A program made the position numbers and the translations under genes. This document shows positions 10,933 through 51,087 of a DNA stretch of 55,830 bases, piece by piece (the first letter of the stretch is position 1; every line of letters starts with the position of its first letter). This stretch comes from Zetaproteobacteria bacterium. Its GTDB lineage: Bacteria > Pseudomonadota > Zetaproteobacteria > Mariprofundales > Mariprofundaceae. The stretch covers positions 1 through 55,830 of the forward strand of contig QIFG01000035.1 in assembly GCA_003228735.1 (NCBI GenBank). Reading direction: 5' to 3'. A model generated the notes under the pieces. That model was not told the DNA's origin and made no database searches. It saw nothing but the letters and a program-made list of their open reading frames with translations.

Positions 10933-10941
10933 GCTGAAATC

Positions 10942-11319
10942 CTATTCTGCAATAATTTTGCCCTGCGCCGTATCCATATTGAACTCACCAAAGAACGGAT
11001 AGATGCCGGGATCCAACGGCCCGATATAGATATAGGCATGGGACCCGCCGGGGATGATCTTTTCGCGATTCAACTCATAGCTTTCAAACTCTTCGGGCGT
11101 GGCATCCAGATTTCTGACCAGAATTCGCAGGCGCTCACCAGCCGGAATGATCAGCTCGGCTGGCTCAAAGCGATGGTTCTTGATCACAAGTTCTGCCTCG
11201 GCCGCTGATAATTCCGGTGCGCTCATAGCCACCACAACTGTTGCCAGGGCGCATCCGGCAGCCAGCCGTAAAAGGTTCAGCTTTGCAGCCCTGGTCTTGA
11301 TTCGCTGATAGTGCGTCAT
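10942..11319 (-). CDS. Periplasmic cupredoxin-like protein (FTR1 partner)
   Basis: About 125 residues: a signal peptide (RLAAGCALATVVVAMSAPELSAA) followed by a single cupredoxin-fold domain. The start is the ATG at 11319, which overlaps the fur stop codon (ATGA), indicating translational coupling; a further in-frame upstream start would lie inside fur. The mature part has the beta-strand pattern of Cupredoxin_1 but no cysteine, so it is not a classical blue-copper site. It resembles the cupredoxin domain of EfeO-type proteins that accompany FTR1 permeases. A role delivering or oxidising iron in the periplasm for the downstream FTR1 gene, nine bases away, is inferred. Confidence 0.75.
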   Translation of the reverse strand: MTHYQRIKTRAAKLNLLRLAAGCALATVVVAMSAPELSAAEAELVIKNHRFEPAELIIPAGERLRILVRNLDATPEEFESYELNREKIIPGGSHAYIYIGPLDPGIYPFFGEFNMDTAQGKIIAE

Positions 11320-11699
11320 GACTGCTGACCACAACGGGCACAACAACCGAACAGAATCAGTTGGTGACCGCTCATCTGAAACCCCTTCTCATGTGCCACC
11401 ACCTTCTGCAGGGCCTCGATGGTGTCATTGGCAAACTCTTCGATGCTGCCGCACTTTGTGCACACCATATGATCGTGATGCTTTTTAACCGCCCGCTCGT
11501 AACGCTTTTTGTCAGCCAGTTGAACACTGTTGACCAGGCCATCCGTCTCCAGAGCAGCCAGGCCGCGATAGACCGTGGCAATGCCGATCTTGTGACCACG
11601 GATGATAAGTTCACGCGCCAGTTCATCGGCATCCCAGTGCTGATTCGATGCATTGATCAGGTTAAGAATCGTTTGTCTCTGTATTGTTAACTTTGCCAT
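11316..11699 (-). CDS. fur: Fur-family metal-responsive repressor
   Basis: A 127-residue Fur-family regulator. The winged-helix DNA-binding half (residues 1-80) contains the GIATVYRGLAALETDGLV recognition region. The metal-binding half has the HHDHMVCTKCG motif and a second CXXC pair near the C-terminus (CCARCG), which should hold structural zinc. It is slightly short for Fur (about 140-150 residues), so it could be a Zur- or PerR-like paralogue. It is first in an operon with the cupredoxin and FTR1 genes, which favours iron as the signal. The divergent region just upstream carries Fur-box-like inverted repeats, suggesting autoregulation. Confidence 0.85.
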   Translation of the reverse strand: MAKLTIQRQTILNLINASNQHWDADELARELIIRGHKIGIATVYRGLAALETDGLVNSVQLADKKRYERAVKKHHDHMVCTKCGSIEEFANDTIEALQKVVAHEKGFQMSGHQLILFGCCARCGQQS

Positions 11700-35785: not shown

Positions 35786-36601
35786 CTAATGCTGACATCC
35801 GGGACAATAGAAGGTGCTGCGTCCGGCCTGCACGATTCTCTGAATGACATGACCGCAACGGGGACACGCCTCCCCCTTTCGCCCATAGACCTGAAATCCA
35901 AAGGCAAAATAACCGGGTTTGCCGTCCACCTGCACAAAATCACTGATTGTACTGCCACCGGCTTCGATGGCCTCGTGCAATATCTCTTTCACATGTTGCA
36001 CCAGAAGTTGCAGTCGCCTCAAACTGATACGACCGGCGTGTCTTGCCGGGTGAATGCCGGCCCGGAACAACGCTTCGGAGGCATAGATGTTGCCGATGCC
36101 AACCACGGCCTTCGCATCCATAAGCACATGCTTGATCGGCGCCTGGCGATTGCAACAGCGCTCGTATAAATATTTCCCATCGAATGCATTCGACAATGGT
36201 TCTGGCCCCAGGTTCCTGAACCAGGCATGTTGCTGCCAGCTTTCCGCAGACATCAGGCCCGCATAACCAAACCTGCGAGCATCACGGTAGCGCAGGCTGG
36301 AGCCATCATCGAAATCAATGCGCACATGTTCATGCCTGGCTTTCGGCTCATCCCTGGGAAGCACATGAAACTGGCCGGTCATGCCCAGATGCCAGGCCAG
36401 CAAAAGACCATCATTGAACTCGAACAGCAGATACTTGGCCCGCCGCGTTATCCGTTGGCAACTGAGGCCTGCAAGCACGTCCAGATCCGGCAGCGGGTAG
36501 CGCAGCGCAGGCACGGCACAATGCACGGATTGGATGCGCCGGCCGATCACCAGAGGCTCCAGACCCCGCCGCACCACTTCCACTTCGGGCAGTTCAGGCA
36601 T
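35786..36601 (-). CDS. mutM: Formamidopyrimidine-DNA glycosylase MutM
   Basis: A 271-residue base-excision repair enzyme that removes oxidised purines such as 8-oxoguanine. The chosen start (ATG at 36601, behind a G-run) gives the conserved N-terminus PELPEVEVVRRGLEP, in which Pro2 is the catalytic nucleophile and Glu3 assists. RRAKYLLFEF holds the conserved lysine. The C-terminal zinc finger has four cysteines (CPRCG and CPGCQ). The frame extends 16 codons further upstream, but that would bury the catalytic proline. Confidence 0.95.
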   Translation of the reverse strand: MPELPEVEVVRRGLEPLVIGRRIQSVHCAVPALRYPLPDLDVLAGLSCQRITRRAKYLLFEFNDGLLLAWHLGMTGQFHVLPRDEPKARHEHVRIDFDDGSSLRYRDARRFGYAGLMSAESWQQHAWFRNLGPEPLSNAFDGKYLYERCCNRQAPIKHVLMDAKAVVGIGNIYASEALFRAGIHPARHAGRISLRRLQLLVQHVKEILHEAIEAGGSTISDFVQVDGKPGYFAFGFQVYGRKGEACPRCGHVIQRIVQAGRSTFYCPGCQH

Positions 36602-36688
36602 ATCACCCCCCGAAATCCCTGATTTACAACCCTCAGGTCGTCTGTGCATGATGATGCTTGAACATCGTCAAACGGCAAGGAGGGATGA

Positions 36689-37348: not shown

Positions 37349-37575
37349 TCAGAAATACAGCTCGGCCTGCAGGGCGCAGAGATTCTCGCGCCGGCCGAAT
37401 TCGCTGATGTTCTTGCCACTGAAAAGCAGTGCAAAGGCGCTGATGTCGAGATTCTCGGCAGCCGACCAACTCAGGTTCGGCAGGAAAAACCGGCTGTTAT
37501 CGCTTGCATCCCAGATGACTGTGCCAGCCAGCCGCCACAACGGCCTGATGTCATAACCGGCTGAAAAGGCGGCGG
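37349..37575 (-). pseudogene. C-terminal fragment of an outer-membrane barrel gene
   Basis: The minus strand encodes the last 70 or so residues of the barrel at 48802-49944 (FSAGYDIRPLWRL, AGTVIWDASDN, FGRRENL and a C-terminal AELYF). Upstream, the similarity stops abruptly at GGCGGCGGC near 37570, where an ABM gene fragment on the other strand begins. It has no start or signal peptide and is a decayed copy. The shared GGCGGC suggests joining at microhomology. Confidence 0.8.
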
Positions 37576-37679
37576 CGCACAAGCTGACCGAGCACTACGA
37601 AACTTGGCGGGAGACCGTGACCGACATGATGGCCGAGCCGCGCCAAGGTGTGCCGTATAACGGCCTGCTGCCTTTATGA
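37570..37679 (+). pseudogene. C-terminal fragment of an ABM monooxygenase gene
   Basis: The plus strand encodes AAAHKLTEHYETWRETVTDM and continues to a GVPYNGLLPL end and a TGA at 37677-37679. This matches the last 35 residues of the ABM protein at 36689-37000. The first two thirds are missing, replaced by the tail of the barrel gene fragment on the opposite strand. It is not expressed as an ABM protein. Confidence 0.8.
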
Positions 37680-37742: not shown

Positions 37743-38981
37743 TCAGGCCTTTTCTTCTTCCCATAATGCACTGATCGGAACAGCAAGCATGCGGTCTCCG
37801 AATGGCAACACCGTGTTACCGGTATAAAGAACGATGCCATGAATGAATTTCTTTCCCGAAGCTTCCGCTAATGTTTGCAGACCTGCAAAATCTCTCAGGC
37901 CAACTTTGGCTGCGGATTTTACCTCGATGCCAACAATACCACCCCCCGAACGCTCCAGAATTAAATCAACTTCTCTACCAGCACTGGTGCGGAAGTGGTA
38001 CATGCGCGCCTGTGTGTGAGACCAGCCCAATTGCTTACGTATTTCCCCAACGATAAAACTCTCCAGCATCGGCCCGGCTAACGGTGACTGCGCCAATTCC
38101 GCCTCATTTTCCAAACCGGCCAGATGGGATGCCAGCCCGCTATCCAGCAAATGAATCTTTGGGGATTTGACCAACCGTTTGGAAAGGTTCCCTGACCATG
38201 CCGGCAGGGGTTGATACAAAAAAGCAGTTTCCAACATTGCCAGATAGCGCCGGAGCGTACTATGCGCAATACCTGTTGAGCGTGACAGCTCCGCCATGTT
38301 CAGCAGACCTGAAGTGCGAACCGCGAGCAATGACAATAGGCGCGGCATCTCCACCAATCCTTCGATATTGGCAAGCTCTCTCACATCCCGTTGCAACATC
38401 GTATTCACATAGGAACGAAACCACGCTGAACGGCGCGAGGTGATTTTTCGCGCTATTGCCTCTGGAAACCCGCCGCGCAACATAAGCGAATGCACCGGAG
38501 CATCCGCCCTTATGCTGGTTACTGGTAATGACTCAGGATCAAATGTCCTGTCCACCCAATTATCCCGCACGCCCAGGATTTCTCCTTGCGACAAGGGCAT
38601 CAAAGTGATGATTTCCATACGTCCTGCCAGTGATTCCGAGATACCCGGCAGCAGCAGCACATTGGCCGAGCCTGTCAGCAGGAATCGCCCGGGACGGCGG
38701 TCTTCATCCACAGCCTGTTTAATAGCCGGAAAAAGCGCGGGGGCGTGTTGCACCTCATCAATCACCGCCATGCCCTGAATGCCTTGAAGAAACCCTTTCG
38801 GATCGCTGCGGGCGGCAGCTAATGTCGCCGCGTCATCCAGGGTGACATATTGACCGCCATGCTCTTTCAGTAGCTGTTGCGCCAATGTGCTTTTTCCAAC
38901 CTGACGGGCGCCATTGAGCAACACAACCGGCGTGTCAGCCAGTGCGGCCTGTATACTTTCCAGGGTATTTCGCCGGTACAT
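37743..38981 (-). CDS. ATPase with C-terminal DUF4143
   Basis: A 412-residue AAA-like ATPase. Walker A is LLNGARQVGKSTL near residue 22 and Walker B is MAVIDEVQHAP. A sensor-like LLTGSANVLLL follows, then DUF4143, whose PD-(D/E)XK-like end contains REVDLIL and GIVGIEVKSAAK. Such genes are common in accessory regions; their cellular role is not established, although a toxin- or nuclease-like function has been suggested. It lies between two ABM gene fragments, so it may have arrived in or split a duplicated unit. Confidence 0.82.
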   Translation of the reverse strand: MYRRNTLESIQAALADTPVVLLNGARQVGKSTLAQQLLKEHGGQYVTLDDAATLAAARSDPKGFLQGIQGMAVIDEVQHAPALFPAIKQAVDEDRRPGRFLLTGSANVLLLPGISESLAGRMEIITLMPLSQGEILGVRDNWVDRTFDPESLPVTSIRADAPVHSLMLRGGFPEAIARKITSRRSAWFRSYVNTMLQRDVRELANIEGLVEMPRLLSLLAVRTSGLLNMAELSRSTGIAHSTLRRYLAMLETAFLYQPLPAWSGNLSKRLVKSPKIHLLDSGLASHLAGLENEAELAQSPLAGPMLESFIVGEIRKQLGWSHTQARMYHFRTSAGREVDLILERSGGGIVGIEVKSAAKVGLRDFAGLQTLAEASGKKFIHGIVLYTGNTVLPFGDRMLAVPISALWEEEKA

Positions 38982-39483: not shown

Positions 39484-41070
39484 ATGGCTCACATTGAAGG
39501 GCTTGGTAAGGGTTTATTGGCCGTAGCCTCAAAATTGGGCAAGCTGGAGATATCGAATGAGCGTATTTCCAAGTCCCGCGAGGAAATCAAGCAGCTACTT
39601 TCAGAATACAAGTCTCAGGCCAGGGACGAGGTCGATCCCCGGCTGAAATCCAAGCTTAAAAACTACCTGAAAAAACTAAACGCAAATTCGCGTGTGCCAT
39701 TTAACTTTCGGCTCGAAGTCATGGACATGTTCACGGATTGCATGGAAATACTCGATGATGATCTGGTTCCTGAGGTTCTCAACTCCTACAAGGTGGCCAT
39801 CGAGGTGCTGTACAGGCACGCATTGAAAGATCAGGAGCTTGCGCCGCCTCTGGCTGAGCTGGCCGCCATGGCCATGACACTGGCAACCCGCACCCTGCGC
39901 AAAACCGCACGGCAGTACAGGCGCACTTCACTTATCGGTATCCGGGAAACACTGTCACTGGCAAAAATCGGGCTGGAGTTGACTGGCAAGTTCAATCTCG
40001 AAGGGACAGAAGGAGCCCACATCTTACGCCAGCAAATTGCCCTGCATGAGATCATTCGCTCGATGCGCACCAGGGCCATGACCGTAATCGATCAGGATAC
40101 GGTGATTGACACCATCCAGGAGAACATGCACGAAGATCATTTGATTGACGTCCGCTTCATTCCGAGGGATTCACACATCGAAGCCCTGGGCTTTGCACTG
40201 ATCGCCGATGTCCAGAAACCCCATTTGCCACCACGGAAAAGTCTCAGACTCAATGAGACAACTCATGACGACATCATTCTCTGTGAGTTGGACCTGCTCG
40301 TGACCAAGCTCATCGAAGAAATGAAAAGTGCGCAAAGTCTCATGGGGAAGTCGGCCAGCCATTATCACGATGAATATGCCTTCGTCAGCGAAAAGCTGAA
40401 TAGATCCATGGTGTCCGGGCTAGCGGTGATAGACATGATGCGGGAAAAAAAACGCATCTATGAGCGCAAACCTCCCAGCCCCGCCATATACATCCAGATC
40501 GAGGAGGATGTGGGACAGGTAATGTCTACGCTGGCCGAAAATAAGCAACGCTCCCCCTTTATCCTGCAGAGCGCTAATACGGGCGAGGCGGGCATCTGGC
40601 TGGCCGTGGACGTTTCCGAAGGAGGTTATTGCCTCGAAAAAATGCCTTCGGATGCCAAAACAGCGCCCTCCCGGTTTGTGGTCAGCGACCTTGTCTATGT
40701 CATTGCCTTAACGCGCGCCGAGACGGGCTCAAAAGACTGGAAGGAGCTCGACCGTTCACTGTGCACCGTATGCTGGTATGAGATGGAGGCCAACAACGTT
40801 GCACGCATCGGCCTTGCCAAGTTGAAGAATGGAGAAATCAGGCACGCACGCATCACGAGCAGCCTGCTTTCAACCGAGGCCCCGAAAGACTTTGCCGCTT
40901 TTGTGGAAAACATTTCAGAAAACAAGCTGGGAATCTGGACTGTTGGAATGGATATGGCTCAAGATGTATGTATTGAAATCCATACGGCAAATGGCGTGCA
41001 GACGGGCAAGATCGGCAAACCCATGAAATGCGGCGCTAACTACACGGTTTACAGCTGCAAGCTGGAATAA
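39484..41070 (+). CDS. Unknown 528-residue cytoplasmic protein, possibly PilZ-like at the C-terminus
   Basis: I do not recognise a family. The N-terminal 90 residues are charged and helical (coiled-coil tendency), and a helical middle part runs to about residue 370. The final 160 residues are mostly beta strands. The segment WLAVDVSEGGYCLE resembles the DxSxxG strand of PilZ-type domains, and the sequence after it has a beta-barrel-like pattern, but the leading RXXXR of PilZ is not clear. There is no signal peptide or membrane span. The ATG at 39484 has only a weak GGGAG further upstream. It sits alone between accessory genes. Confidence 0.6.
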   Translation: MAHIEGLGKGLLAVASKLGKLEISNERISKSREEIKQLLSEYKSQARDEVDPRLKSKLKNYLKKLNANSRVPFNFRLEVMDMFTDCMEILDDDLVPEVLNSYKVAIEVLYRHALKDQELAPPLAELAAMAMTLATRTLRKTARQYRRTSLIGIRETLSLAKIGLELTGKFNLEGTEGAHILRQQIALHEIIRSMRTRAMTVIDQDTVIDTIQENMHEDHLIDVRFIPRDSHIEALGFALIADVQKPHLPPRKSLRLNETTHDDIILCELDLLVTKLIEEMKSAQSLMGKSASHYHDEYAFVSEKLNRSMVSGLAVIDMMREKKRIYERKPPSPAIYIQIEEDVGQVMSTLAENKQRSPFILQSANTGEAGIWLAVDVSEGGYCLEKMPSDAKTAPSRFVVSDLVYVIALTRAETGSKDWKELDRSLCTVCWYEMEANNVARIGLAKLKNGEIRHARITSSLLSTEAPKDFAAFVENISENKLGIWTVGMDMAQDVCIEIHTANGVQTGKIGKPMKCGANYTVYSCKLE

Positions 41071-41100: not shown

Positions 41101-41491
41101 TTAGAAATAGACCTCTGCCTGCAGGGCATAGAGGTTTTCCCTTCGACCGAATTCGCTTTCTTGTTTGCCGTCAAACAGCAGTGCAAACAGGCTGACATCA
41201 ATATTCTCGGCAGCCGACCAACTCAGGCTCGGCAGAAAGAATTGGCTATTGTCGCTCGCATCCCAAATCACCGTGCCGGCCAGCCGCCACAGCGGCGTGA
41301 TATCGTAGCCGGCTGAAAGGGCGATGGCATGCCTGGCCAGAGAATACAGTCTGTCCACCGGTGCAAGAACAGGAGCCGTACCAGGTGCACCATTGTAAAA
41401 GTATTCGGCAAGCAGGTATAATCCGTCCGGGAAGACATCGTTGCTCAAGGTATAGTCATAGCCAATCGAGGCTTGAGCATAGGCCTTGCCA
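41101..41491 (-). pseudogene. Truncated outer-membrane barrel gene at the island edge
   Basis: The minus strand encodes the last 130 residues of a paralogue of the barrel at 48802-49944 (GKAYAQASIGYDYT, EYFYNGAPG, FGRRENLYALQAEVYF). The match ends abruptly at 41491. The next bases on the plus strand belong to the NiCoT nickel transporter gene, whose stop codon is only three bases away. The missing upstream half is not found beside it. This is the left boundary of the GC-rich CO island. Confidence 0.85.
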
Positions 41492-41494
41492 GAA

Positions 41495-42331
41495 TTAGAG
41501 CGAGGACGACCAAGCCTTCGTCGGTCCGCCAGTGCGGGCGAGGCGCAGGGCGAAGAAGAAGCTCAGCGCAACGACGAGGATGAAAGAAAGGCCGAAGGCG
41601 AGCTCCTTGCCGTCGACCCAGGCGGCGACCTCCGGCGAAGCGTACTTCGCGATGCCGAAGCCGGCCACCAGCAGGGACAATCCGCCCACGGCCAGCCCCA
41701 TCACGCGCGAGGCAACGCAGGCGATGCGGTCGGCGCGGCGGATCAGGCGCGAGATCCACAGGCCGTTGATGCCGTCCGTCAGCATCATGCCGAGCATGAA
41801 GAGCAGGCCCAGCGTGAGCGCGTGCGCCACACCGCCGAACTGCATGCCGGTGAAAGCGAACAGAGCCGTCTGACTCATGGTATCGAAGGAGAAGGCGAAA
41901 AAGGCGCCGACCAGCGCGATCAGCGCGGGGTTGCCGGTACGCTGCAGACGCGCGAAGAAGCGGCCCTTGAGGCCCACTGTCTGCACGACTTCGTTGGGCC
42001 GCGTTGTCAGTACCGCCACGAGATTCAAGGCCCCAAGCAAAGCAAGGAAAGTGATGGATATCCAGGCGCCGAAATCCTCCAGCCACTCCGGCACAGCCCA
42101 GCGCTGCGCCACCGAGCCGACGGCCAGCGCGATGACAATCACCACCGCACCGTGACCGAGCGAAAAGAGCGCGCCGCACCAGCGCGCGAGTTTCGGATTC
42201 TGGCGCGCGTTAAAGCGGGTCAGGCCGTCGATGGTGGCGAGATGGTCGGCATCGAGGCCGTGCTTAACGCCGAGCGTGAACACCAACAGCATCAGTGCCA
42301 GCCAATCGTTGGGCAGAGTATCCATGGGCAT
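41495..42331 (-). CDS. NiCoT-family nickel/cobalt transporter
   Basis: A 278-residue inner-membrane permease with about seven hydrophobic spans. The NiCoT signature HX4DH is seen as KHGLDADHLATIDG at residues 24-30. Later segments (FAFSFDTMSQTALFA, LFMLGMMLTDGINGLW) are also family-like. It probably imports nickel for the CODH C-cluster. It is the last gene of the coo operon, and its stop codon lies three bases from the truncated barrel gene. Confidence 0.85.
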   Translation of the reverse strand: MPMDTLPNDWLALMLLVFTLGVKHGLDADHLATIDGLTRFNARQNPKLARWCGALFSLGHGAVVIVIALAVGSVAQRWAVPEWLEDFGAWISITFLALLGALNLVAVLTTRPNEVVQTVGLKGRFFARLQRTGNPALIALVGAFFAFSFDTMSQTALFAFTGMQFGGVAHALTLGLLFMLGMMLTDGINGLWISRLIRRADRIACVASRVMGLAVGGLSLLVAGFGIAKYASPEVAAWVDGKELAFGLSFILVVALSFFFALRLARTGGPTKAWSSSL

Positions 42332-42360
42332 CTACTGCGCGCTTATGAGGAAAGCTTAAT

Positions 42361-42732
42361 TCATCCTAACGGGGATTCGTGCCAAGACTTCAAACCAGTT
42401 GATTCTTCAGGCATCACCGTTGGTTCGGATGTTCCGTTCCGAAAAGCATCCTGCCGCTTTGAAGATTTTGTAAAACCTTCATAAGCGCCGGCCTCCGTTC
42501 CACCGTCCTTGCCGTCTTGGAGTTCTGGGCCGGGCTGCGGCAGCACCGGCTTCGCGGCAGCCCGAAAAACAGTGTCGTCGAAGAGGTGGGGGGAGGGGAT
42601 ATCGTGATGATCGTGGCAATGGGCCGTCCCGTCGGCATGGATATGCCAGCCTCCGTCCTTCTGGCGGGCACGCCGGGCCTCGTCATCGGGCGCGCCGTTT
42701 TTCGGCTTATCGCAACCGCAACCGTCACACAT
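42361..42732 (-). CDS. Cys/His-rich small protein, putative nickel chaperone
   Basis: A 123-residue protein of no family I can name. It begins MCDGCGCDKPK and then has GWHIHADGTAHCHDHHD: one Cys cluster and one His/Asp cluster within 50 residues. The remaining 70 residues are polar and low in structure. HypB-type hydrogenase maturation proteins have a similar N-terminal Cys plus His-rich stretch but also a GTPase domain, which is absent here. CooJ, a His-rich nickel chaperone in classical coo operons, is the functional analogue I would propose. It overlaps cooC by eight bases, and the ATG follows GGAGG. Nickel binding is inferred. Confidence 0.65.
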   Translation of the reverse strand: MCDGCGCDKPKNGAPDDEARRARQKDGGWHIHADGTAHCHDHHDIPSPHLFDDTVFRAAAKPVLPQPGPELQDGKDGGTEAGAYEGFTKSSKRQDAFRNGTSEPTVMPEESTGLKSWHESPLG

Positions 42733-43543
42733 GGTCGTACCTCCTTTCCTCAGCCTGTCCGGTGCCGGCCAGCGCGCTTTCAATGCTGTCGGCGATGGCG
42801 GCAACGTCCATCGCCAACTGTCGATCGAGTGCGTACAAGACCTGCCCGCTACGGTCGGCTGCAATCGCTTCGGGCGAGGCGTCGAGGCAGCCGATCAGCG
42901 GTATGCCCGGTGCGTTTTCCGCGAAGAAGCGCCGGTCGGCCTCGCTGCCCACTTTGTTGCCGACGAGCAGCAGATTCTCGATACCAATATCCGCAGCAAG
43001 CACTCTGATCTGCTCCACCGTGCGCATGCTGCGGTGAGTCGGCTCCGCTACCGCCAGCATCACATCCACCGCTTCCGCGGTGCCCCGCCCCAGATGCTCG
43101 ACGCCGGCATAGAGATCGAGCAGCACGACCTCGTCGCATTGCAGCACGACATGCTGCACCAGTTGTTTGAGCAACGCGCTCGCCGGGCAGATGCAGCCGG
43201 CTCCACCCTGCTGCACGGCGCCCAGCAGCAGCAGCCGGATGCCGTTGTGCTCCTCGGAAAATCGGTCCGGCAGGTCGCTCACCCGTGGATTGAGCTTGAA
43301 GAAATTACCCGCCACCTCGCCCAAGCTCGATCCGGTGCGTTCGGCGATCAGATCCCGCATTTCCGCGATGGGCGTTAGTTCGAGCATCTTGTCCGCCGGG
43401 AAGCCCAACGCCGCACCGAGGCAGGGAGATGGGTCGGCGTCAATGGCCAGCACAGAACGGCCGCGGCCGGCATAGTGGTAGGCCAACAGGCTGGTCAGCG
43501 TGGTCTTGCCGACGCCACCCTTGCCGGTGATGGCGATCTTCAT
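42725..43543 (-). CDS. cooC: CODH nickel-insertion ATPase CooC
   Basis: A 272-residue MinD/SIMIBI-class ATPase that loads nickel into the CODH C-cluster. The deviant Walker A is ITGKGGVGKTT with lysines at 8 and 13. The CxC metal motif GCICPAS (Cys117 and Cys119) should hold Ni or Zn across the dimer. The ATG at 43543 overlaps the stop of the upstream oxidoreductase (ATGA). The next gene, the Cys/His-rich protein, overlaps its end, pointing to coupled synthesis of maturation factors. Confidence 0.93.
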   Translation of the reverse strand: MKIAITGKGGVGKTTLTSLLAYHYAGRGRSVLAIDADPSPCLGAALGFPADKMLELTPIAEMRDLIAERTGSSLGEVAGNFFKLNPRVSDLPDRFSEEHNGIRLLLLGAVQQGGAGCICPASALLKQLVQHVVLQCDEVVLLDLYAGVEHLGRGTAEAVDVMLAVAEPTHRSMRTVEQIRVLAADIGIENLLLVGNKVGSEADRRFFAENAPGIPLIGCLDASPEAIAADRSGQVLYALDRQLAMDVAAIADSIESALAGTGQAEERRYDHV

Positions 43544-44790
43544 GCCGCCAACCGCGTCGGCAACGGCGGCCGCGGGATCAGGCATCCGTAGCCGAAACCG
43601 GGAGACAGCAGTTCGCTCTCGAAGGAGCCTACATCGACGCCCTTGTTCATCAGTTCGTGGTACAGCCCGGTCGCATTCACGTCGCCGAAGAATTGTGCGC
43701 CGACCACCCTGCCGCTGCTCAGGCTTAACTTCTTCAGGATACCGTTGCCTGCGTAGCGCAGGCTGCGTTCGCCCGCCGAGCTGCCGAAAGAGGCGACCGG
43801 CAGGTCGAAGATGCGCACCACGTTGATGCCGTCGAGTCCGCGAAAACTACGGGTTCGCGCGGCCACCATGTTGCCGCCGGCGATACGGCCGCCATTGACG
43901 GCGTTGGGCCAGATCGGCAGCACCCGGCGTTGCCCCTGGCGATCGAAGCCTTCGACGATGTCGCCGGCGGCATAGACATCCGGCTGGTTCGTTTCCATGA
44001 ACTCGTTCACCAGTATTCCGGTCGCCGTGGAGATGCCGCTGCCTGCCAGCAGCGAGAGATCGGGGCGCACGCCGACAGCGCAGACAACGAGATCGCAAGG
44101 AATTTCCTGTCCGCCGACACGTACGGCGGAAACGCCGGCTTGCCCGCCGAGCACAGCCTCGGCCGGGCTGTTGACGCGCACGTCGACGCCGTGATCGCGC
44201 AGTCGCGTCTCCACCAGCGCCGCCATCTCCGCGTCCAGCATCTGCGGTAGCACCTGGCTGAGCGCCTCGACCACGGTCACCGCCAACCCGCGCCGTACCA
44301 GGGCCTGGGCGGCCTCGAGGCCGATGAAGCCGGAGCCGATGACCACGGCGCGCCGCGCCGCCGGCAGGCGGGCAACGATGCCGTCGGCATCGGCGAGGGT
44401 CTTCAGGGCGAACACGCCGGGCGTGCCGGCGAGCCCGGGAATCGGCGGCATGATGGCGCGGGCGCCGGAGGCGATGAGCAGGCGTTCATAGGGCAGTTCG
44501 GCGGCATCGCTCCCGCTGCCGACGGTGACGCGTCGGGCCGTTGTGCCGATCGCCGTCGCCGGGTGGCCGAAGAATGTCGTGATGTCCTGGTCGCGATAGA
44601 ACTTCTCGTCGCGCAGGAACAGGTGATCGCGCGGCACACTGGCTTCCACGTACTCGGCCAGCGGGCAGGGCGAATAGAAGGGCACCGCTTCCTTCGAGAT
44701 CATCGTGATCCCGCAATGTCCGTCGAGTTCGCGTGCCGCCTCGGCGGCGGCAACCGCCGCCGGGCCGTTGCCGATGATGACGATCTTCAT
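43540..44790 (-). CDS. CODH-associated FAD/NAD(P) oxidoreductase
   Basis: A 416-residue pyridine-nucleotide-disulphide-type flavoprotein without a redox cysteine pair. It has the FAD GXGXXG-type start VIIGNGPAAVAAAEAA, a second Rossmann motif VVIGSGFIGLEAAQAL for NAD(P), and DVYAAGDIVEG. In CODH gene sets with CooF this FNOR-type enzyme is thought to pass CO-derived electrons from the ferredoxin to NAD(P). It lies between cooS and cooC, with ten bases to cooS and an ATGA overlap to cooC. Confidence 0.85.
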   Translation of the reverse strand: MKIVIIGNGPAAVAAAEAARELDGHCGITMISKEAVPFYSPCPLAEYVEASVPRDHLFLRDEKFYRDQDITTFFGHPATAIGTTARRVTVGSGSDAAELPYERLLIASGARAIMPPIPGLAGTPGVFALKTLADADGIVARLPAARRAVVIGSGFIGLEAAQALVRRGLAVTVVEALSQVLPQMLDAEMAALVETRLRDHGVDVRVNSPAEAVLGGQAGVSAVRVGGQEIPCDLVVCAVGVRPDLSLLAGSGISTATGILVNEFMETNQPDVYAAGDIVEGFDRQGQRRVLPIWPNAVNGGRIAGGNMVAARTRSFRGLDGINVVRIFDLPVASFGSSAGERSLRYAGNGILKKLSLSSGRVVGAQFFGDVNATGLYHELMNKGVDVGSFESELLSPGFGYGCLIPRPPLPTRLAA

Positions 44791-44800
44791 GCCGGCGCTT

Positions 44801-46699
44801 TCACAGGCCCAGCGCGGCGCGCTTTTCCTTGATGATTTCGATCACGCCGGCCGCGGCCTTCTCCGGGTCGCACTCGACGAAGACCTTGGCGCCGGTGATA
44901 TTAACCAAGTCCTCGGTCAGCACCTTGGTCACCACTTGGCTGCCGAGTATGCGCGGCGCCGGGGCCACATGCAGCGGCGTACCCAGAGCGAGGAAGGAGC
45001 AACCGATGGAAATGGCCTTCTCCTGCACCAACTCCGGTGCCGAACCCACCGCAGGCAACTGGCTGATTTTTACGCCGAGGCGACTGGCCACCGCGCCGAG
45101 CAGGTCGACGATGCGCGAATTATCGACGCAGGAACCCATGTGCCACACCGGCGGCAGCGGGCCGCCAAGGCCGGCGGCCTGTCCCAGCGCGGTGAGCACC
45201 GCCTTGAGGCCGTCGCCGCAGTACTTGCCGGTCGCCTCCGAGGTGAGCAGGCCGTCCTGGGCGCAAATGTGGGCGATGCAGCCGGTGGTCACCACCAGTA
45301 CGTTGTTTGCCAAAAGCGCCTTGATCATTTTCTCGGTCATGGCGCCGTCGCGGAACTTGATGCTGGCGCAACCGACGATGCCGGCAAAGCCGAGAATGTT
45401 GCCATTGACGACATTGTCGATCACCGGCTTGAGCGGGTCTTTCGCATCCACCTTGGACAGGATGCCGACAATGGCTTCGAGCGAGAGCCCGACCACGGCC
45501 GTGGTCTTGAGCTTGGGGATGTCGACCTGCTTGCCCTTGCGCTTGGCGAAGGCCTCGATGCCAGCCCGGACGATTTCCTGGGCGCTCTCGTTGGCGTGAT
45601 GCGGTTCGAATTCGATGTGCCGTGCGCCCGGGATATGCACCATCTCGTCGGTGGTGATGAAGGCGGTGTCGAAGCACTTGGCCAGTTGCGGCAGCGACGG
45701 CCAGATGCACTGGATATCGACGACCATGCAGTCGACCGCGCCGGTGGCCAGGACCAGCTCCGACTGCGCATTGTGCGCAGCCAGCGGCACGCCGTGGCGC
45801 ATGCTCAGTTCGTTGCCGGTGCAGCACACGCCGACGAGGTTGATGCGGTCGGCGCCGGCGGCTACCGCCTCCTTGTCCAGTTTGCCCGCCCACTCCATGA
45901 TTTTTTCGGAGAGCACCGGGTTGTGGCCATGCACGGCGATATTAACGCTGTTTCCCTCAAGCACGCCAACATTGGATTCGACCGTCGTCACCTGCGGCGT
46001 GCCGAACAGGATGTCCTGCACGTCGGTGCACAGGGCGAGCCCGCTCCAGCCGTCGACCAAGCCGATCTTCAGCGTGCGCAGAAGCAGGGTGACGGGGTCG
46101 GCGTCGTTGCCCATGGACGAGGCGTGCATCGCCGTCTCGATTTCGTTGTGCGGGTTGGAGTAGAGAAGACCGAGCTTCTCCCACATTTCCTGCTCCATGG
46201 CCGGGGCGCGCTTGCTCAGCCAGTTGTTCGGCTTGCCGTCCTGCCGCCCGAAATCCTGCAGGGCGATGTCGACCAGGTCGCGGCAGACGTCCTTGGCCGA
46301 GCGACGCTTGGTGGGGACGCCGAACAATTCCGCCAGGGCAAAAAGCCGTTTTTCGCCGCGAATCTCGTAGGGCGCCTCCCCGTTCAGAGCATCGCGCAGC
46401 GTCAGCAGCAGATGACGGGCGTGGCCGACATGGGAGGCCGCGCCGCCCACTGCCTCGCGCAGCAGATTGCGCGCCACCATGGTGTCGGGGGAAAGGCCGC
46501 ACACGCCTTTCTTCGGGCCGTCGCCAAAGGGATCAATGCGGCACGGCCCCATGTAGCAGATGCGGCAGCAGGTGCCCAGTTCGCCGAAACCGCATTGCGG
46601 CTTCATCACGGCGAGCCGGTCGCGGCCCGTTTCCAAGCCTTTGCTACGGGCGATTTCCAGCAGTTGTTTTTCGGCAGCGGGGGTGACGACGTTATTCAT
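44801..46699 (-). CDS. cooS: Ni-Fe carbon monoxide dehydrogenase CooS
   Basis: A 632-residue anaerobic CODH that oxidises CO with water to CO2. All cluster ligands can be placed with a constant offset of three from the Carboxydothermus CODH-II numbering: D-cluster Cys36 and Cys44; B-cluster Cys45, Cys48, Cys53, Cys67; C-cluster His258, Cys292, Cys330, Cys443, Cys473, Cys523. The enzyme therefore looks fully functional. The start is the ATG at 46699, after GGGAGG and overlapping the cooF stop; the frame upstream belongs to cooF in another phase. It is not the acetyl-CoA synthase-linked type by its neighbours, as no acs genes are present. Confidence 0.96.
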   Translation of the reverse strand: MNNVVTPAAEKQLLEIARSKGLETGRDRLAVMKPQCGFGELGTCCRICYMGPCRIDPFGDGPKKGVCGLSPDTMVARNLLREAVGGAASHVGHARHLLLTLRDALNGEAPYEIRGEKRLFALAELFGVPTKRRSAKDVCRDLVDIALQDFGRQDGKPNNWLSKRAPAMEQEMWEKLGLLYSNPHNEIETAMHASSMGNDADPVTLLLRTLKIGLVDGWSGLALCTDVQDILFGTPQVTTVESNVGVLEGNSVNIAVHGHNPVLSEKIMEWAGKLDKEAVAAGADRINLVGVCCTGNELSMRHGVPLAAHNAQSELVLATGAVDCMVVDIQCIWPSLPQLAKCFDTAFITTDEMVHIPGARHIEFEPHHANESAQEIVRAGIEAFAKRKGKQVDIPKLKTTAVVGLSLEAIVGILSKVDAKDPLKPVIDNVVNGNILGFAGIVGCASIKFRDGAMTEKMIKALLANNVLVVTTGCIAHICAQDGLLTSEATGKYCGDGLKAVLTALGQAAGLGGPLPPVWHMGSCVDNSRIVDLLGAVASRLGVKISQLPAVGSAPELVQEKAISIGCSFLALGTPLHVAPAPRILGSQVVTKVLTEDLVNITGAKVFVECDPEKAAAGVIEIIKEKRAALGL

Positions 46700-47262
46700 T
46701 TCTGGGTTCCTCCCTTCAGACTTCTCCACAAATCGACGTTGCCGGCAACGCGGGCAACGGGCTTGCCGGCTGCGTTCATGGCAGTGGCCTGGCGCCGGTG
46801 GGCGGCCAGTTCTTCCGGCGTTGCGTAAATCATGGCCCGCGTCGGGCAGGCGGCGACGCAGGCCGGGTCTTCGCCGCGCGCCGTCCTGTCCGGGCAGCGG
46901 TCGCACTTGAACGCCTTCTTCGCCACCGGATCGGCGCTGACGCTGCCGAAGGGACAGACCATGACGCACATCCAGCAGCCGATGCACTTGCTTTCATCAA
47001 CATAGACGGCGTTCGTCGCCGCGTTGCGGGTCATCGCGCCCATCGGGCAGGCGGCGATGCAGGCGGCGTCCTCGCAATGCATGCAGCGCGCCGGATAGCT
47101 GTGCACGCCGGCGTTCTCGACACGCACCCGCGGCCGCGGGTGCGGGCTTTCGGCGAGGGCGCCGAACAGGCTCTTGGCCCGGGAGTGCTCGACTGCGCAG
47201 GCGATCTCGCAACCCTTGCAGGCGACGCATCTGTCGATGAAGGTGAAAATGGCTTTGTCCAT
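46696..47262 (-). CDS. cooF: CooF-like ferredoxin with four 4Fe-4S motifs
   Basis: A 188-residue electron carrier with four Cys motifs typical of CooF/HycB-type proteins: CVACKGCEIAC, CMHCEDAACIAACP, CIGCWMCVMVCPFG and the final CDRCPDRT with CVAACPTRA. It should take electrons from CooS. The ATG at 47262 follows GGAGGAGG; longer frames upstream run into the regulatory region. It is first in the coo operon. Confidence 0.92.
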   Translation of the reverse strand: MDKAIFTFIDRCVACKGCEIACAVEHSRAKSLFGALAESPHPRPRVRVENAGVHSYPARCMHCEDAACIAACPMGAMTRNAATNAVYVDESKCIGCWMCVMVCPFGSVSADPVAKKAFKCDRCPDRTARGEDPACVAACPTRAMIYATPEELAAHRRQATAMNAAGKPVARVAGNVDLWRSLKGGTQK

Positions 47263-47520
47263 TCGTCCTCCTCCTGTAACGTGGACATCTCGCGCTCCGT
47301 GCTGGCCGGAGATCGGTGCCCGCCGGTTGATTGTCCAACCGGGATGTGCATCATCGCCCCGGCTAGGGTACTGTTTCCGCATTAAGTCTATTGCAATGAA
47401 GGCATAGGCGGAAACCACAATTTCACGAACAGCGAAACCGGCGCACGAACGGGGGAATGGCTACCCGAACCGCAGCGGGAGCGGTCGAGGCGGGTGCCAT
47501 CATCTGAGAGGAAATTGGAT
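47263..47520. promoter_or_regulatory. Divergent control region between cooF and the RcoM-like gene
   Basis: Both transcription units start within these 258 bases. GTTTCCGC at 47373-47380 and GCGGAAAC at 47408-47415 form a perfect 8-bp inverted repeat with a 27-base spacer. It is the strongest symmetrical element I see here and could be a binding site of the LytTR-type regulator. No clear sigma-70 promoter stands out by eye. Confidence 0.45.
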
Positions 47521-48246
47521 ATGTCACAGCAACAGGACATCCTGAACCGACTGCCGATCGGCATGGTGATGCTCGACCGCGATCACCGGGTGGTCAGCTT
47601 CAGCGGCACCGCAGCCGCAGTTCTGGGTACGGAACGCTTGCGCGAAAGCTTGGGCAAGACCATACAGTCGGTGCACTCCGAGCATTCCCGCAGCAAGATC
47701 GAATGGCTGCTGCAGCAGTCGCACAATGAAGACGCATCCGGCTACGCCTCGATGCTCATCAACGTGCCGGACACGGTCCTGCAACTGCGCATGATCCAGC
47801 TTCATGATGCCAAAGGGATTGGCGGCTATTGCCTGATCCTCTGCGACATCACCGACCTGACCTCGCACCCGGCGGTGCAGGAGCCGCCCGGCGGAAAAAG
47901 CCCCGCCGGGCGCAGGCTCTTCAAGCTGCCGGTGTCCATGCATGGCCGCATCGCATTATTGGACCTCGGCGAGGTGGCATTCCTCCGGGCCGATGGCCAC
48001 TACACCCTGGCCTGCGCTAACGGCAAGCACTATTTCTGCAGCCTGTCCTTGAGCCAATTGGAGTCACGCCTGCCACAGGACTGCTTTGTACGAGTCCATC
48101 GCAGCTACATCATCAATCTCGCCCATGCGTGCGCAGTGCTCCGCCACGACGAGCAGTTCGTGATTTCCATGGCGGGAAACACCGAGGAGAAAATTCCGGT
48201 TAGCCGGGTCAACGTACCGCACCTACGCCGGCTGCTCGGCGTGTGA
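47521..48246 (+). CDS. rcoM: RcoM-like PAS-LytTR CO-sensing regulator
   Basis: A 241-residue transcription factor: one PAS domain (residues 1-115), a linker, and a LytTR DNA-binding domain (about 140-240; LRADGHYTLACANGKHYF, VRVHRSYIINLAHA). This architecture, next to cooF/cooS, is that of RcoM, a heme protein that activates CO oxidation genes. RcoM heme ligands are His74 and Met104 in the Burkholderia protein; the equivalents here look to be His52 (SVHSEHSRSK) and Met78 (SMLINVPD). The RcoM Cys94, a redox-switch ligand, has no counterpart, because the loop is shorter. The start is the ATG at 47521, with GAGAGGA upstream. Confidence 0.78.
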   Translation: MSQQQDILNRLPIGMVMLDRDHRVVSFSGTAAAVLGTERLRESLGKTIQSVHSEHSRSKIEWLLQQSHNEDASGYASMLINVPDTVLQLRMIQLHDAKGIGGYCLILCDITDLTSHPAVQEPPGGKSPAGRRLFKLPVSMHGRIALLDLGEVAFLRADGHYTLACANGKHYFCSLSLSQLESRLPQDCFVRVHRSYIINLAHACAVLRHDEQFVISMAGNTEEKIPVSRVNVPHLRRLLGV

Positions 48247-48503
48247 TCCCCTGCCTAGGGCGATCAACACCCAATTTAGCTTAACAACAGGTTTGCGTAG
48301 TGAAAAAACATGGAGTCAGCGCGGAAGGGTAAGGTGGAATACCGCGCTGGAGAAGACCGAACAGTCAATGGTGTGAAGTTTGCCCGATCAATAGCATGAT
48401 CCTCTGGGTCACGTCGGCGACATTGGTGAGCCCGTGACGGCGGGCATCCCGTTTGAAAGAGTGCGATCTAGCCCGGCCTATTCAATAAAGTGCTGCGATG
48501 ATG

Positions 48504-48578
48504 GACTCGGGCATTCAGCCCTCGGGGCTTGCGCCCCGCCCTTGCGGGCGTCCAAACGGCGTTCCGCCTTTTTGTGCG
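48504..48578 (-). repeat. Copy B of a dispersed intergenic repeat
   Basis: Read on the minus strand, these 75 bases match 53057-53130 on the plus strand at all but a few positions. The shared core includes TTTGGACGCCCGCAAGGGCG and CGCAAGCCCCGAGGG. One copy borders the CO island; the other lies between two ABC permease genes. Neither lies inside a real gene. Confidence 0.85.
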
Positions 48579-48591
48579 CCGGGCATTGATT

Positions 48592-48727
48592 CGCAAAGGA
48601 TTTTTTGACTCGGCACAATCCTGTGCCTCGGGCCCGCCCTTTGGGCGCCCAATTCGGCCATCCTGCCGAATTGTGAAGGTCGATGCGTACTGGTAAGTAC
48701 GTGAGGCCGAGAATAAAATCCTTTGCG
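48592..48727. repeat. Nested inverted-repeat element
   Basis: The outer arms CGCAAAGGATTTT (48592-48604) and AAAATCCTTTGCG (48715-48727) are exactly complementary. Inside are CAATTCGGC (48650-48658) with GCCGAATTG (48665-48673), and CGTACT with AGTACG around 48687-48702. The transcript would fold into a multi-stem structure. It may be a palindromic repeat or the remains of a non-autonomous mobile element. Confidence 0.65.
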
Positions 48728-48801
48728 GAGCAAGGAGCAAGCGAGGGCGCGAGTACATTTGTGAATAGTCCGGGCTAGGAGTCTGCACTTTATACTTGGA
48801 G

Positions 48802-49944
48802 CTAGAAGTAAATCTCGGCCTGTAGTGCATAGAGATTGTTTCGACGCCCGAATTCACTTACTTGTTTGCCGCCAAAAAGCAGGGCAAACAGGCTGATATC
48901 TAGATTCTCGCTGGCCGACCAGGTCAGATTCGGCAGGAAAAACCGGCTGTTGTCACTCGCATCCCAGATCACCGTGCCGTCCAGCCGCCACAGCGGTGTG
49001 ATGTCATAACCGGCTGAAAAGGCGGCCGCATGCCGGGCCAGCGAATACAGTCTGTCCACCGGCGCAAGAACGGGAGCCGCACCCGGTGCGCCGTTGTAAA
49101 AATATTCAACCAGCAGATACAGCCCCTCCGGAAAGGCATCGTTGCTCAGGGTATAGTCATAGCCAATCGAGGCTTGGGCATAGGCCTTGCCGCCCTTCGG
49201 CCAGGCCTGCATGGCTTCGACCCTGAATGTTCCATCTGCGACATTGGCGGCCACATCGCCGCCGAGCACGCGTTCCACCCCAATTTTCCCCACTGTCATC
49301 GAAACATCCGTCTCGCCAATGGTGTCCCTGATTCTTACGGCCAGCTTGTGCGACACATTGTGACTGGCCTTGCCGGGGGCCGCCACGAACTGGACAGCGC
49401 CGAATCCACTGTATCGATATTCGGCAAACAGCGAATCCACGCCGGTCTTCTCTGATGGCTCCAGCGCTGTCGGATCGACCGGATTGAAACGGTCGGCCGG
49501 ATTCCAGATGCGTCCCGTGCCCCAGGCAATCCTCTGCCTTCCTGCCGTTAGCTGCACATTGCCGGCATCAAGGCGCAGCCAGCCCCGGTACAGCCTGTGC
49601 GGCCAATCATGCCGGCTGCCATCGCTGATCCTGCTTTTTGCATCGAGCCAGGTAGGCTCCGGCAGATTCGCCACTGCCGTAAAATCCGGGCTGGAAACCA
49701 GTTCGCCGTAGAGCAGTTCATGATCATAGGCCGCATACCAGGACAGTACGGATGCCGAGCCATCCCAGGTCAGGCGCAGGCGGTTCAGATCGGTTGTCAG
49801 TGATGTGCCTGCCGTGTCCGTGGAATGAAACAGCAGGTTTTTATAACTGCCGCCGAATGTGCTTGACACAGCCGGTTCCGCCGCATCAAGGTGACCCTGC
49901 CAGAACAAAACCAGCAGAAAGACCAGAACGCCAGAACGGCGCAC
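48802..49944 (-). CDS. Outer-membrane beta-barrel protein
   Basis: A 380-residue protein with a signal peptide (LVFLLVLFWQGHLDAA) and a porin-like barrel of about 14-18 predicted strands, ending in AEIYF with a C-terminal Phe. The segment QLTAGRQRIAWGTGRIWNPAD resembles outer-membrane proteins that pair with LolA-like or lipid-export clusters. The start is a GTG with no clear ribosome-binding site. Three copies of its C-terminal coding region exist in the window (37349, 41101 and here); only this one is full length. It is downstream of the ABC transporter cluster, which suggests that it is the outer-membrane partner. Confidence 0.75.
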   Translation of the reverse strand: MRRSGVLVFLLVLFWQGHLDAAEPAVSSTFGGSYKNLLFHSTDTAGTSLTTDLNRLRLTWDGSASVLSWYAAYDHELLYGELVSSPDFTAVANLPEPTWLDAKSRISDGSRHDWPHRLYRGWLRLDAGNVQLTAGRQRIAWGTGRIWNPADRFNPVDPTALEPSEKTGVDSLFAEYRYSGFGAVQFVAAPGKASHNVSHKLAVRIRDTIGETDVSMTVGKIGVERVLGGDVAANVADGTFRVEAMQAWPKGGKAYAQASIGYDYTLSNDAFPEGLYLLVEYFYNGAPGAAPVLAPVDRLYSLARHAAAFSAGYDITPLWRLDGTVIWDASDNSRFFLPNLTWSASENLDISLFALLFGGKQVSEFGRRNNLYALQAEIYF

Positions 49945-50025: not shown

Positions 50026-50946
50026 TCATGGCTCGTCCCAGGTATCCTCCCAACTCTGAGAAGATTGGTTCCAGTTTCTGCCCCGATCCCGTTGTTGCGC
50101 ATTCCAGCCCTGAGACTGTTTATTTTGAGAGCCTTGGGGCTGGATGTTCTGATACTGAGGCGGCACATCCCGATCCTGTTGTCGCACACCCCAACCCTGA
50201 GACTGTTGATTCTGAGAGCCTTGAGGTCGGATGTTCTTATACTGGGGCGAAACATTCTGATTCTGAGCCGGTGAACCCCAGGACTGCGATTGTCCACTAC
50301 GGCTCTGCGGTTGAGCACTCCAGCTTTTTGGCGGTGCATTCCGGCTCTGGGCAGGCGTGCTCCAACTGTGAGGCCGGATATTCTGATTCTGGGCGGGCAT
50401 GCCCCAACTTCGGGGTTGAGTATTCCGCTCCTGAGCAGATGTTCCCCAACCGTTGGATTGTTTATTCCAGGGCTGGACTGATTTGTCCGGGCTCGCAGAC
50501 GGCCGCTGCCAGCGGAAAACCCGGCCCGTGGAATCAAAAGTGACGGACGCGCCCTGCGGGTAAAGGTATTTCACTGACTTCGGGTTCGTAGCATCCGTTG
50601 CACTTGGTTTGCCAAGCATTCTTGTGACCTCGGCTTTGGTCATGCCATTATTGAGATTTCCCCACGCCCCTGGCGCCATGGCTGCCCCTCCCCAGCCCGA
50701 TTGGGATTTCCGTCCCCACTGAGATGAAGGCGCTCCCGGCTCGGATTGGGACGTTCGCCCCCATTGAGATGAAGACATGGTTTGCTTGGATTGGCCCGAT
50801 CTTTGTTCCAGTTCTTTTACACGCTGCTCCAGTGCGTTAATCCTCTGTTGAGTCGAATCTGCGCCCTGGCCATGGGCAACGGCAGGAAAGGTATGGGCGC
50901 TCCCTATGACGATAATGGAAACAGCAATCAGGCCTGCTCGTTTCAT
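50026..50946 (-). CDS. Secreted BamE-like protein with Gln/Asn/Trp-rich repeats
   Basis: About 306 residues with a signal peptide and start at an ATG (50946) after GGAGGGAG. Next is a short coiled coil (QRINALEQRVKELEQRSGQ) and a SmpA/BamE-like domain (NLNNGMTKAEVTRMLGKPSA, then SVKYLYPQGASVTF). The C-terminal half is repetitive: four 14-residue units of the form N..P.SWS.PAQ.R, followed by two 29-residue units starting PQYKNIRPQG and PQYQNIQPQG. The repeats are rich in Gln, Asn, Ser, Pro and one Trp each, so they are probably disordered or sticky. The function is unknown; the BamE fold hints at a periplasmic protein tied to the outer membrane. Confidence 0.75.
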   Translation of the reverse strand: MKRAGLIAVSIIVIGSAHTFPAVAHGQGADSTQQRINALEQRVKELEQRSGQSKQTMSSSQWGRTSQSEPGAPSSQWGRKSQSGWGGAAMAPGAWGNLNNGMTKAEVTRMLGKPSATDATNPKSVKYLYPQGASVTFDSTGRVFRWQRPSASPDKSVQPWNKQSNGWGTSAQERNTQPRSWGMPAQNQNIRPHSWSTPAQSRNAPPKSWSAQPQSRSGQSQSWGSPAQNQNVSPQYKNIRPQGSQNQQSQGWGVRQQDRDVPPQYQNIQPQGSQNKQSQGWNAQQRDRGRNWNQSSQSWEDTWDEP

Positions 50947-51087
50947 CGGCTCTCCCTCCACTCCGAAACCTGTCTGGTCATCCCGGAACAACCGGGATGT
51001 CCGTGTCCGTAGCATTAAACACCAGATATGGCACGCATGCAAAGTCAGGCGAGCAGGGCCTCTCCATTGCCAATCACCAGGCCAGCG

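Follow-up and report, generated by a model that had tools for sequence, protein, structure and literature searches.

A probable horizontally acquired module for CO oxidation in a zetaproteobacterium, with its own predicted operator and nickel supply

Layout of the coo island

The stretch of DNA analysed here (the window) is the 55,830-nucleotide contig QIFG01000035.1, positions 1 to 55,830, from the assembly GCA_003228735.1 of a zetaproteobacterium. Between 41495 and 48246 it carries a compact island for a nickel-containing carbon monoxide dehydrogenase (Ni-CODH): a gene for an RcoM-like CO-sensing regulator and, divergent from it, a six-gene operon on the minus strand in the order cooF, cooS, FAD/NAD(P) oxidoreductase (FNOR), cooC, a gene for a small Cys/His protein, and NiCoT (Table 1). 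Judged by its gene content, the island is probably a horizontally acquired, CO-inducible module that would deliver electrons from CO to NAD(P)H.

The genes are closely packed. Overlaps of 4 bp (cooF/cooS and FNOR/cooC) and 8 bp (cooC/Cys/His gene) alternate with gaps of 10 bp (cooS/FNOR) and 29 bp (Cys/His gene/NiCoT), while 258 bp separate cooF from rcoM, for which an upstream GTG start at 47494 is also possible. The original prediction, made from the DNA letters, had described this operon order, the divergent regulator gene and the mostly overlapping or tight genes, and gene calls and family searches bear it out. The further claims of an own regulator and an own nickel supply also held, the former now with a matching predicted operator and the latter extended by a HypB-prefix-like protein. 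Matches to sigma-70 promoters and terminators within the island were not clearly above chance, so no promoter is claimed.

Table 1. Features of the coo island and of its insertion site (positions in the window)
Feature	Position	Strand	Basis or remark
NiCoT nickel/cobalt permease	41495-42331	-	PF03824
Cys/His small protein, HypB-prefix-like, predicted nickel carrier	42361-42732	-	M-C-x-G-C-G-C start, HxHADGTxHxHxH stretch
cooC, CODH maturation ATPase	42725-43543	-	GKGGVGKTT and CxC motifs
FNOR, FAD/NAD(P) oxidoreductase	43540-44790	-	Pyr_redox_2 PF07992, 211 bits
cooS, monofunctional Ni-CO dehydrogenase	44801-46699	-	TIGR01702, ligands
cooF, ferredoxin-like	46696-47262	-	Fer4_11; 16 Cys
Predicted RcoM operator	47422-47469	-	three octamers
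rcoM-like CO-sensing regulator	47521-48246	+	haem PAS and LytTR
mutM (fpg), left chromosomal neighbour of insertion	35786-36649	-	adjoins barrel gene in a relative (G016/L027)
Barrel fragment B, 3' end from about residue 301	37349-37591	-	80% nucleotide identity over 213 nt
Barrel fragment A, last 129 codons	41101-41490	-	83% nucleotide identity; 5' edge is the island's left edge
MITE-like element, 309 bp	48469-48777		between rcoM and barrel gene
Intact outer-membrane barrel-like gene, right neighbour of insertion	48802-49944	-	no family; beside ABC/LolA-like operon

The CO dehydrogenase and its electron partners

CooS scores 646 bits with TIGR01702, against a curated cut-off of 478. As had been predicted, all of its cluster ligands can be placed. 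In the alignment with CODH-II of Carboxydothermus hydrogenoformans, the D-cluster (C36, C44), the B-cluster (C45, C48, C53, C67), the C-cluster (H259, C293, C331, C444, C474, C524) and the catalytic residues (H90, H93, H96, D216, K561) are all kept. The ligand set includes the Cys that is absent from CODH-V-like proteins. The nearest solved structure is that of ChCODH-IV (PDB 6elq), at 50% identity.

CooF contains 16 cysteines, a number that suffices for four [4Fe-4S] clusters. Both CooF and FNOR match a subunit of one and the same solved complex (8c0z_C and 8c0z_E, the latter with FNOR at 6e-43), an aldehyde oxidoreductase whose parts include an Fe-S relay and a FAD/NAD subunit. The catalytic subunit and the substrate of that complex are different, but its relay and FAD/NAD subunits are homologous to CooF and FNOR. 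In FNOR, a Glu follows the second strand of the nucleotide fold, which suggests NAD+ as the acceptor. The operon that joins cooS, cooF and FNOR holds no acetyl-CoA synthase (ACS) or energy-converting hydrogenase (ECH) genes, the arrangement of the Geobacter-type module. It was shown that extracts of Geobacter sulfurreducens, whose homologous cluster comprises the same five gene families, reduce NADP+ in a CO-dependent manner (PMC4703632). Together with the 8c0z matches, this supports the route proposed in the original prediction, in which CO electrons would pass via CooF to the flavoprotein and NAD(P).

RcoM and its predicted operator

The regulator has the single-component architecture of a PAS and a LytTR domain, as found by family search. 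Its residues H52 and M78 are invariant among the three orthologues compared here (the window and the two related loci described below). They may correspond to the haem ligands His74 and Met104 of RcoM-1.

The intergenic region between cooF and rcoM contains three TTCNNG octamers whose starts lie exactly 20 bp apart, with spacers of 12 bp. On the coo strand these are TTCGGGTA (47462-47469), TTCGTGCG (47442-47449) and TTCGTGAA (47422-47429). In base-shuffled copies, three TTnnnG motifs at 20-bp spacing turned up with a frequency of 0.0006, and with one of 0.009 when any equal spacing of 9-22 bp was allowed. The published RcoM1 site consists of three octamers TTCNNGCA with spacers of 12-13 bp (PMC11347149), and the triplet of the window, having the same layout, is predicted to be an RcoM operator. 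The octamers of the window are without the terminal CA of the RcoM1 consensus, whereas those of the two related loci keep it. One of these loci has repeats at 46, 67 and 87 (TTCAGGAA, TTCGCGCA and CTCGCGAT; genome G041); in the other, from a Rhodoferax metagenome-assembled genome (MAG), two of the three repeats are present (TTCACGCA and CTGGTGAA).

Nickel supply

CooC combines the deviant Walker A motif GKGGVGKTT with a CxC metal motif (CIC at 117-119). NiCoT scores 62.1 bits with the NicO family PF03824 (gathering threshold 27.7) and lies under the stricter TIGR00802 cut-off.

Between the two lies the gene for the Cys/His protein, which comes after cooC in all three lineages (orthologues at L012:5535-5729 in the Rhodoferax MAG and L014:15503-15700 in G041). 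All three proteins start with M-C-[DE]-G-C-G-C, followed by W-H-x-H-A-D-G-T-x-H-x-H-x-H, and the N-terminus satisfies the HypB pattern M-C-x-x-C-G-C. Their top family is in each case HypB_prefix_1 (NF053667, the N-terminal part of HypB), which matches from residue 1. The scores (11.0, 26.2 and 16.9 bits) are all below the curated cut-off of 30 bits, and the E values, in rising order, are 1.6e-5, 0.013 and 0.89. The protein is thus likened to the HypB nickel site in its presumed working and is not classed as a member of this family. In E. coli HypB, Ni(II) is bound at CXXCGC with a sub-picomolar Kd (PMC7055735), and CooT binds nickel through Cys2 (PMC6006190). The host's own HypB, encoded on contig C10, is His-rich and starts with MCTYCGCGQPDAHLHHHSHDH. 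By its motifs and its position after cooC, the Cys/His protein is probably a free-standing nickel carrier for CooS, in place of CooT/CooJ. No paper that describes a HypB-prefix-like protein in a CODH operon was found in the literature search.

Distribution and relatives

Among the 78 genomes of the class, CooS above the TIGR01702 cut-off was found in one, the genome of the window itself, and the other 77 likewise lack a relative of NiCoT. Of 399 genomes sampled evenly across the phylum, two have CooS, namely the window's genome and G041, whose taxonomic order comprises G041 alone, with no further neighbours from its lineage. The closest CooS in the named collection lies on a 6-kb contig of the Rhodoferax sp. 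MAG (89%), followed by that of Carboxydocella (50%). A literature search by titles and counts, with supplements not searched, retrieved no paper describing a Ni-CODH in Zetaproteobacteria.

The search for a syntenic block that the original prediction had proposed revealed the six-gene core, rcoM divergent from cooF-cooS-FNOR-cooC-Cys/His gene, in identical order in the Rhodoferax MAG (L012) and in the other pseudomonadotal genome, G041 (L014). The respective identities to the window are 89% and 75% for CooS, 68% and 67% for FNOR, 80% and 76% for CooC, and 71% and 62% for RcoM, and DNA homology with the Rhodoferax contig spans about 42606-48227. Past the Cys/His gene, the window has NiCoT and the Rhodoferax MAG a HupE/UreJ-type permease (PF04955), while no nickel permease was seen at this place in G041. 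The six-gene core thus travels together, with the permease as an exchangeable attachment. The core, from rcoM to the Cys/His gene, would have come from outside the class, and the nickel permease would be an add-on. A plasmid-borne origin was considered and rejected: CooS on plasmids amounted to two records only, both below 43% identity, no CooS was found in viral contigs, and the Cys/His protein had no plasmid match.

Composition and insertion site

The island was predicted to be richer in G+C than its flanks, and it is: GC is 0.643 over 41491-48250 versus 0.564 and 0.565 for the DNA to either side of it. The G+C content at third codon positions (GC3) of the six large island genes is 0.78-0.85, compared to 0.66 +/- 0.05 for 35 flanking genes, i.e. 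2.3 to 3.4 standard deviations higher. The Cys/His gene (GC3 0.60) is the exception. Uniform composition and the same block at the same place in all close relatives had been named beforehand as arguing against transfer; composition differs, and 77 of the 78 class genomes lack the block. Its portability is further borne out by the two distant pseudomonadotal genomes with the same order and by a relative with an empty site.

In this relative (G016), the barrel gene lies 11 bp from mutM. In the window, about 12 kb separate the two, made up of the island, other cargo and two 5'-truncated 3' copies of the barrel gene, both on the strand of the intact gene. Homologues of the barrel gene, mostly at 44-53% identity, adjoin the same ATP-binding cassette (ABC) genes in class relatives. 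Fragment A matches the intact gene over 390 nt; the homology then breaks off sharply at 41490, four bases from the stop codon of NiCoT. The synonymous divergence (dS) of fragment A is 0.76 with a ratio of nonsynonymous to synonymous divergence (dN/dS) of 0.09; for fragment B, dN is 0.10 and dS 1.0. The low dN/dS of 0.09 indicates that the copies were still functional genes while they diverged, and hence that truncation was the later event.

From the barrel gene leftwards follow the coo island, a 3' fragment, the other cargo and the second 3' fragment, which suggests two successive insertions that each left a barrel 3' end. The entry of the block next to the outer-membrane gene may have been what left a truncated copy of the gene's 3' end behind, and the barrel locus is possibly an insertion hot spot with duplication of the gene end, without an integrase. 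It could also be, with a probability not far short of even, that the 3' fragments are old tandem paralogues of the barrel gene among which the island landed without any mechanism directed at gene ends. The dS of 0.76-1.2 between the copies speaks of an old divergence, the breakpoints of the fragments differ, so that there is no fixed att site or common att core, and no integrase was found among the open reading frames of 36.6-49 kb. However, each of the two separate cargo blocks is bordered by a 3' piece of the barrel gene that lacks its 5' part, and both pieces have the same orientation. Single-crossover integration of DNA with a related barrel 3' end would directly give this pattern, and the low dN/dS implies that the copies were functional until recently.

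The miniature inverted-repeat transposable element (MITE)-like sequence has a 16-bp terminal inverted repeat, TAGCCCGGxCTATTCA (2 matches, 0.03 expected), and folds very strongly (z -7.6). An 84% copy is located at G000:C67:8924-9236, and parts of the element recur about 40 times in the window's genome. The second cargo block encodes an AAA_14/DUF4143 ATPase (37743-38981, minus strand) and a protein of 528 aa that matched no family (39484-41070, plus strand). Adjoining the barrel gene, a repeat-rich, QSW-rich protein with repeats of 42-bp and 87-bp period is encoded at 50026-51042 (minus strand). Further away, 9391-11699 encodes, in this order, an FTR1-type iron permease, a cupredoxin-like protein and a Fur-like regulator.

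Proposed mechanism and alternatives

In the proposed mechanism, CO would bind to the His/Met-ligated haem of RcoM, which would then activate the divergent coo operon via the three direct repeats. Nickel would be imported by NiCoT, held by the HypB-prefix-like protein and inserted into CooS with the help of the ATPase CooC. CooS would oxidize CO to CO2, and the electrons would exit via its clusters B and D, pass to CooF, and from there reach the FAD of FNOR and finally NAD+ (or NADP+). The host is probably an iron-oxidizing autotroph. For an autotroph with a weak electron donor, the module would give reducing power directly and also clear a respiratory poison.

A role that is mainly protective, i.e. 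CO scavenging or the use of CO electrons for the detoxification of oxygen and reactive oxygen species, as proposed for CODH-IV of C. hydrogenoformans, is considered unlikely. CODH-IV is the nearest solved CooS and is called CO-scavenging and resistant to O2 by its authors. Its operon (CHY0735-0738) also holds CooF and FNOR, and the nanomolar CO affinity of RcoM proteins would suit a scavenger. Unlike that operon, which includes a rubrerythrin-like gene and, as far as reported, neither RcoM nor CooC nor a nickel permease, the island lacks a rubrerythrin or peroxidase. A catabolic formation of NAD(P)H would agree equally well with the complete nickel supply and with the findings in Geobacter, and the protective and catabolic readings are not mutually exclusive.

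Several observations weigh against the catabolic CO-to-NAD(P)H module. The Cys/His protein of the window is the one with the poor HypB_prefix E value (0.89), and it carries an unconserved C-terminal tail; because of this tail and its lower GC3, this copy may be degenerating. As to the acceptor, the Geobacter extracts favor NADP+, whereas the Glu of FNOR points to NAD+. The genome is an incomplete draft of 100 contigs in which no 16S gene was found, and the junctions of the island are read from the assembled contig. Such a draft, with the differing composition and a repeat (the MITE-like element) at the right edge, could suggest an assembly chimera or binning error that brought in the island from another organism in the sample. 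This is very improbable, as the class's own barrel gene lies on both sides of the island in one contig, the genes around it show synteny with those of class relatives, and the identities of fragment A (83%) and of the second MITE copy (84%) are too low for an assembler to be easily misled.

The CODH reaction is reversible, but a reductive use, from CO2 to CO for the carbonyl branch of the Wood-Ljungdahl pathway, was rejected as hardly conceivable given the monofunctional operon, the CO-sensing regulator and the absence of any CdhC/AcsB match (acsB) from the draft genome. The original prediction of neither hydrogenase nor acs stands for the island, and for acs across the draft genome; for hydrogenase it does not extend to the genome, as contig C10 (L066, 1769-9687) encodes a cytoplasmic NAD(P)-type [NiFe] hydrogenase (group 3b-like, sulfhydrogenase type) with HypA, HypB and HypF.

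Relation to known systems

The CO-to-NAD(P)H module most resembles GSU2095-2099 of G. sulfurreducens (PMC4703632), where a monofunctional CooS, CooC, CooF, a FAD/NAD(P) oxidoreductase and RcoM occur without hydrogenase or ACS and for which a route from CO to NAD(P)H was likewise proposed. The order there is cooS-cooC-cooF-FNOR, while rcoM is divergent in the window; the host phylum differs, and no Cys/His protein or nickel permease has been described there. A transferred CooS-CooF-FNOR set is also found in cable bacteria (PMC11247825), but without RcoM and with a CooS that affiliates with Bacillota. Rhodospirillum rubrum cooFSCTJ shares the cooF-cooS-cooC operon, dedicated nickel proteins and CO induction (predicted for the window). 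There, CooA takes the place of RcoM and CooT/CooJ that of the HypB-prefix-like protein, and an ECH hydrogenase serves as electron sink. CooS-CooF-FNOR is present in several CODH clades (PMC6344411, PMC13240472, PMC13056359). The core of CooS-CooF-FNOR with RcoM and CooC is already known from Geobacter; new here are the host group, the small nickel protein that resembles HypB, and the scar that the insertion has visibly left.

Implications

If the proposed role is correct, Ni-CODH would extend to a class of probable autotrophs, and CO would be a candidate donor that gives NAD(P)H directly where electrons otherwise must go uphill. A more specific picture is put forward tentatively, and is rather doubtful as a whole: a microaerophilic iron-oxidizing zetaproteobacterium might bypass uphill electron transport with an acquired, O2-resistant, CODH-IV-like CO-to-NAD(P)H module, served by a new, dedicated kind of CODH nickel chaperone, a HypB-type peptide (M-C-x-G-C-G-C/His) that stands alone and takes the place of CooT/CooJ. 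The Cys/His protein is a concrete candidate for the nickel route to CODH where CooT and CooJ are missing. With its own predicted operator and nickel supply, the compact module may also be of practical use for producing CODH in heterologous hosts.

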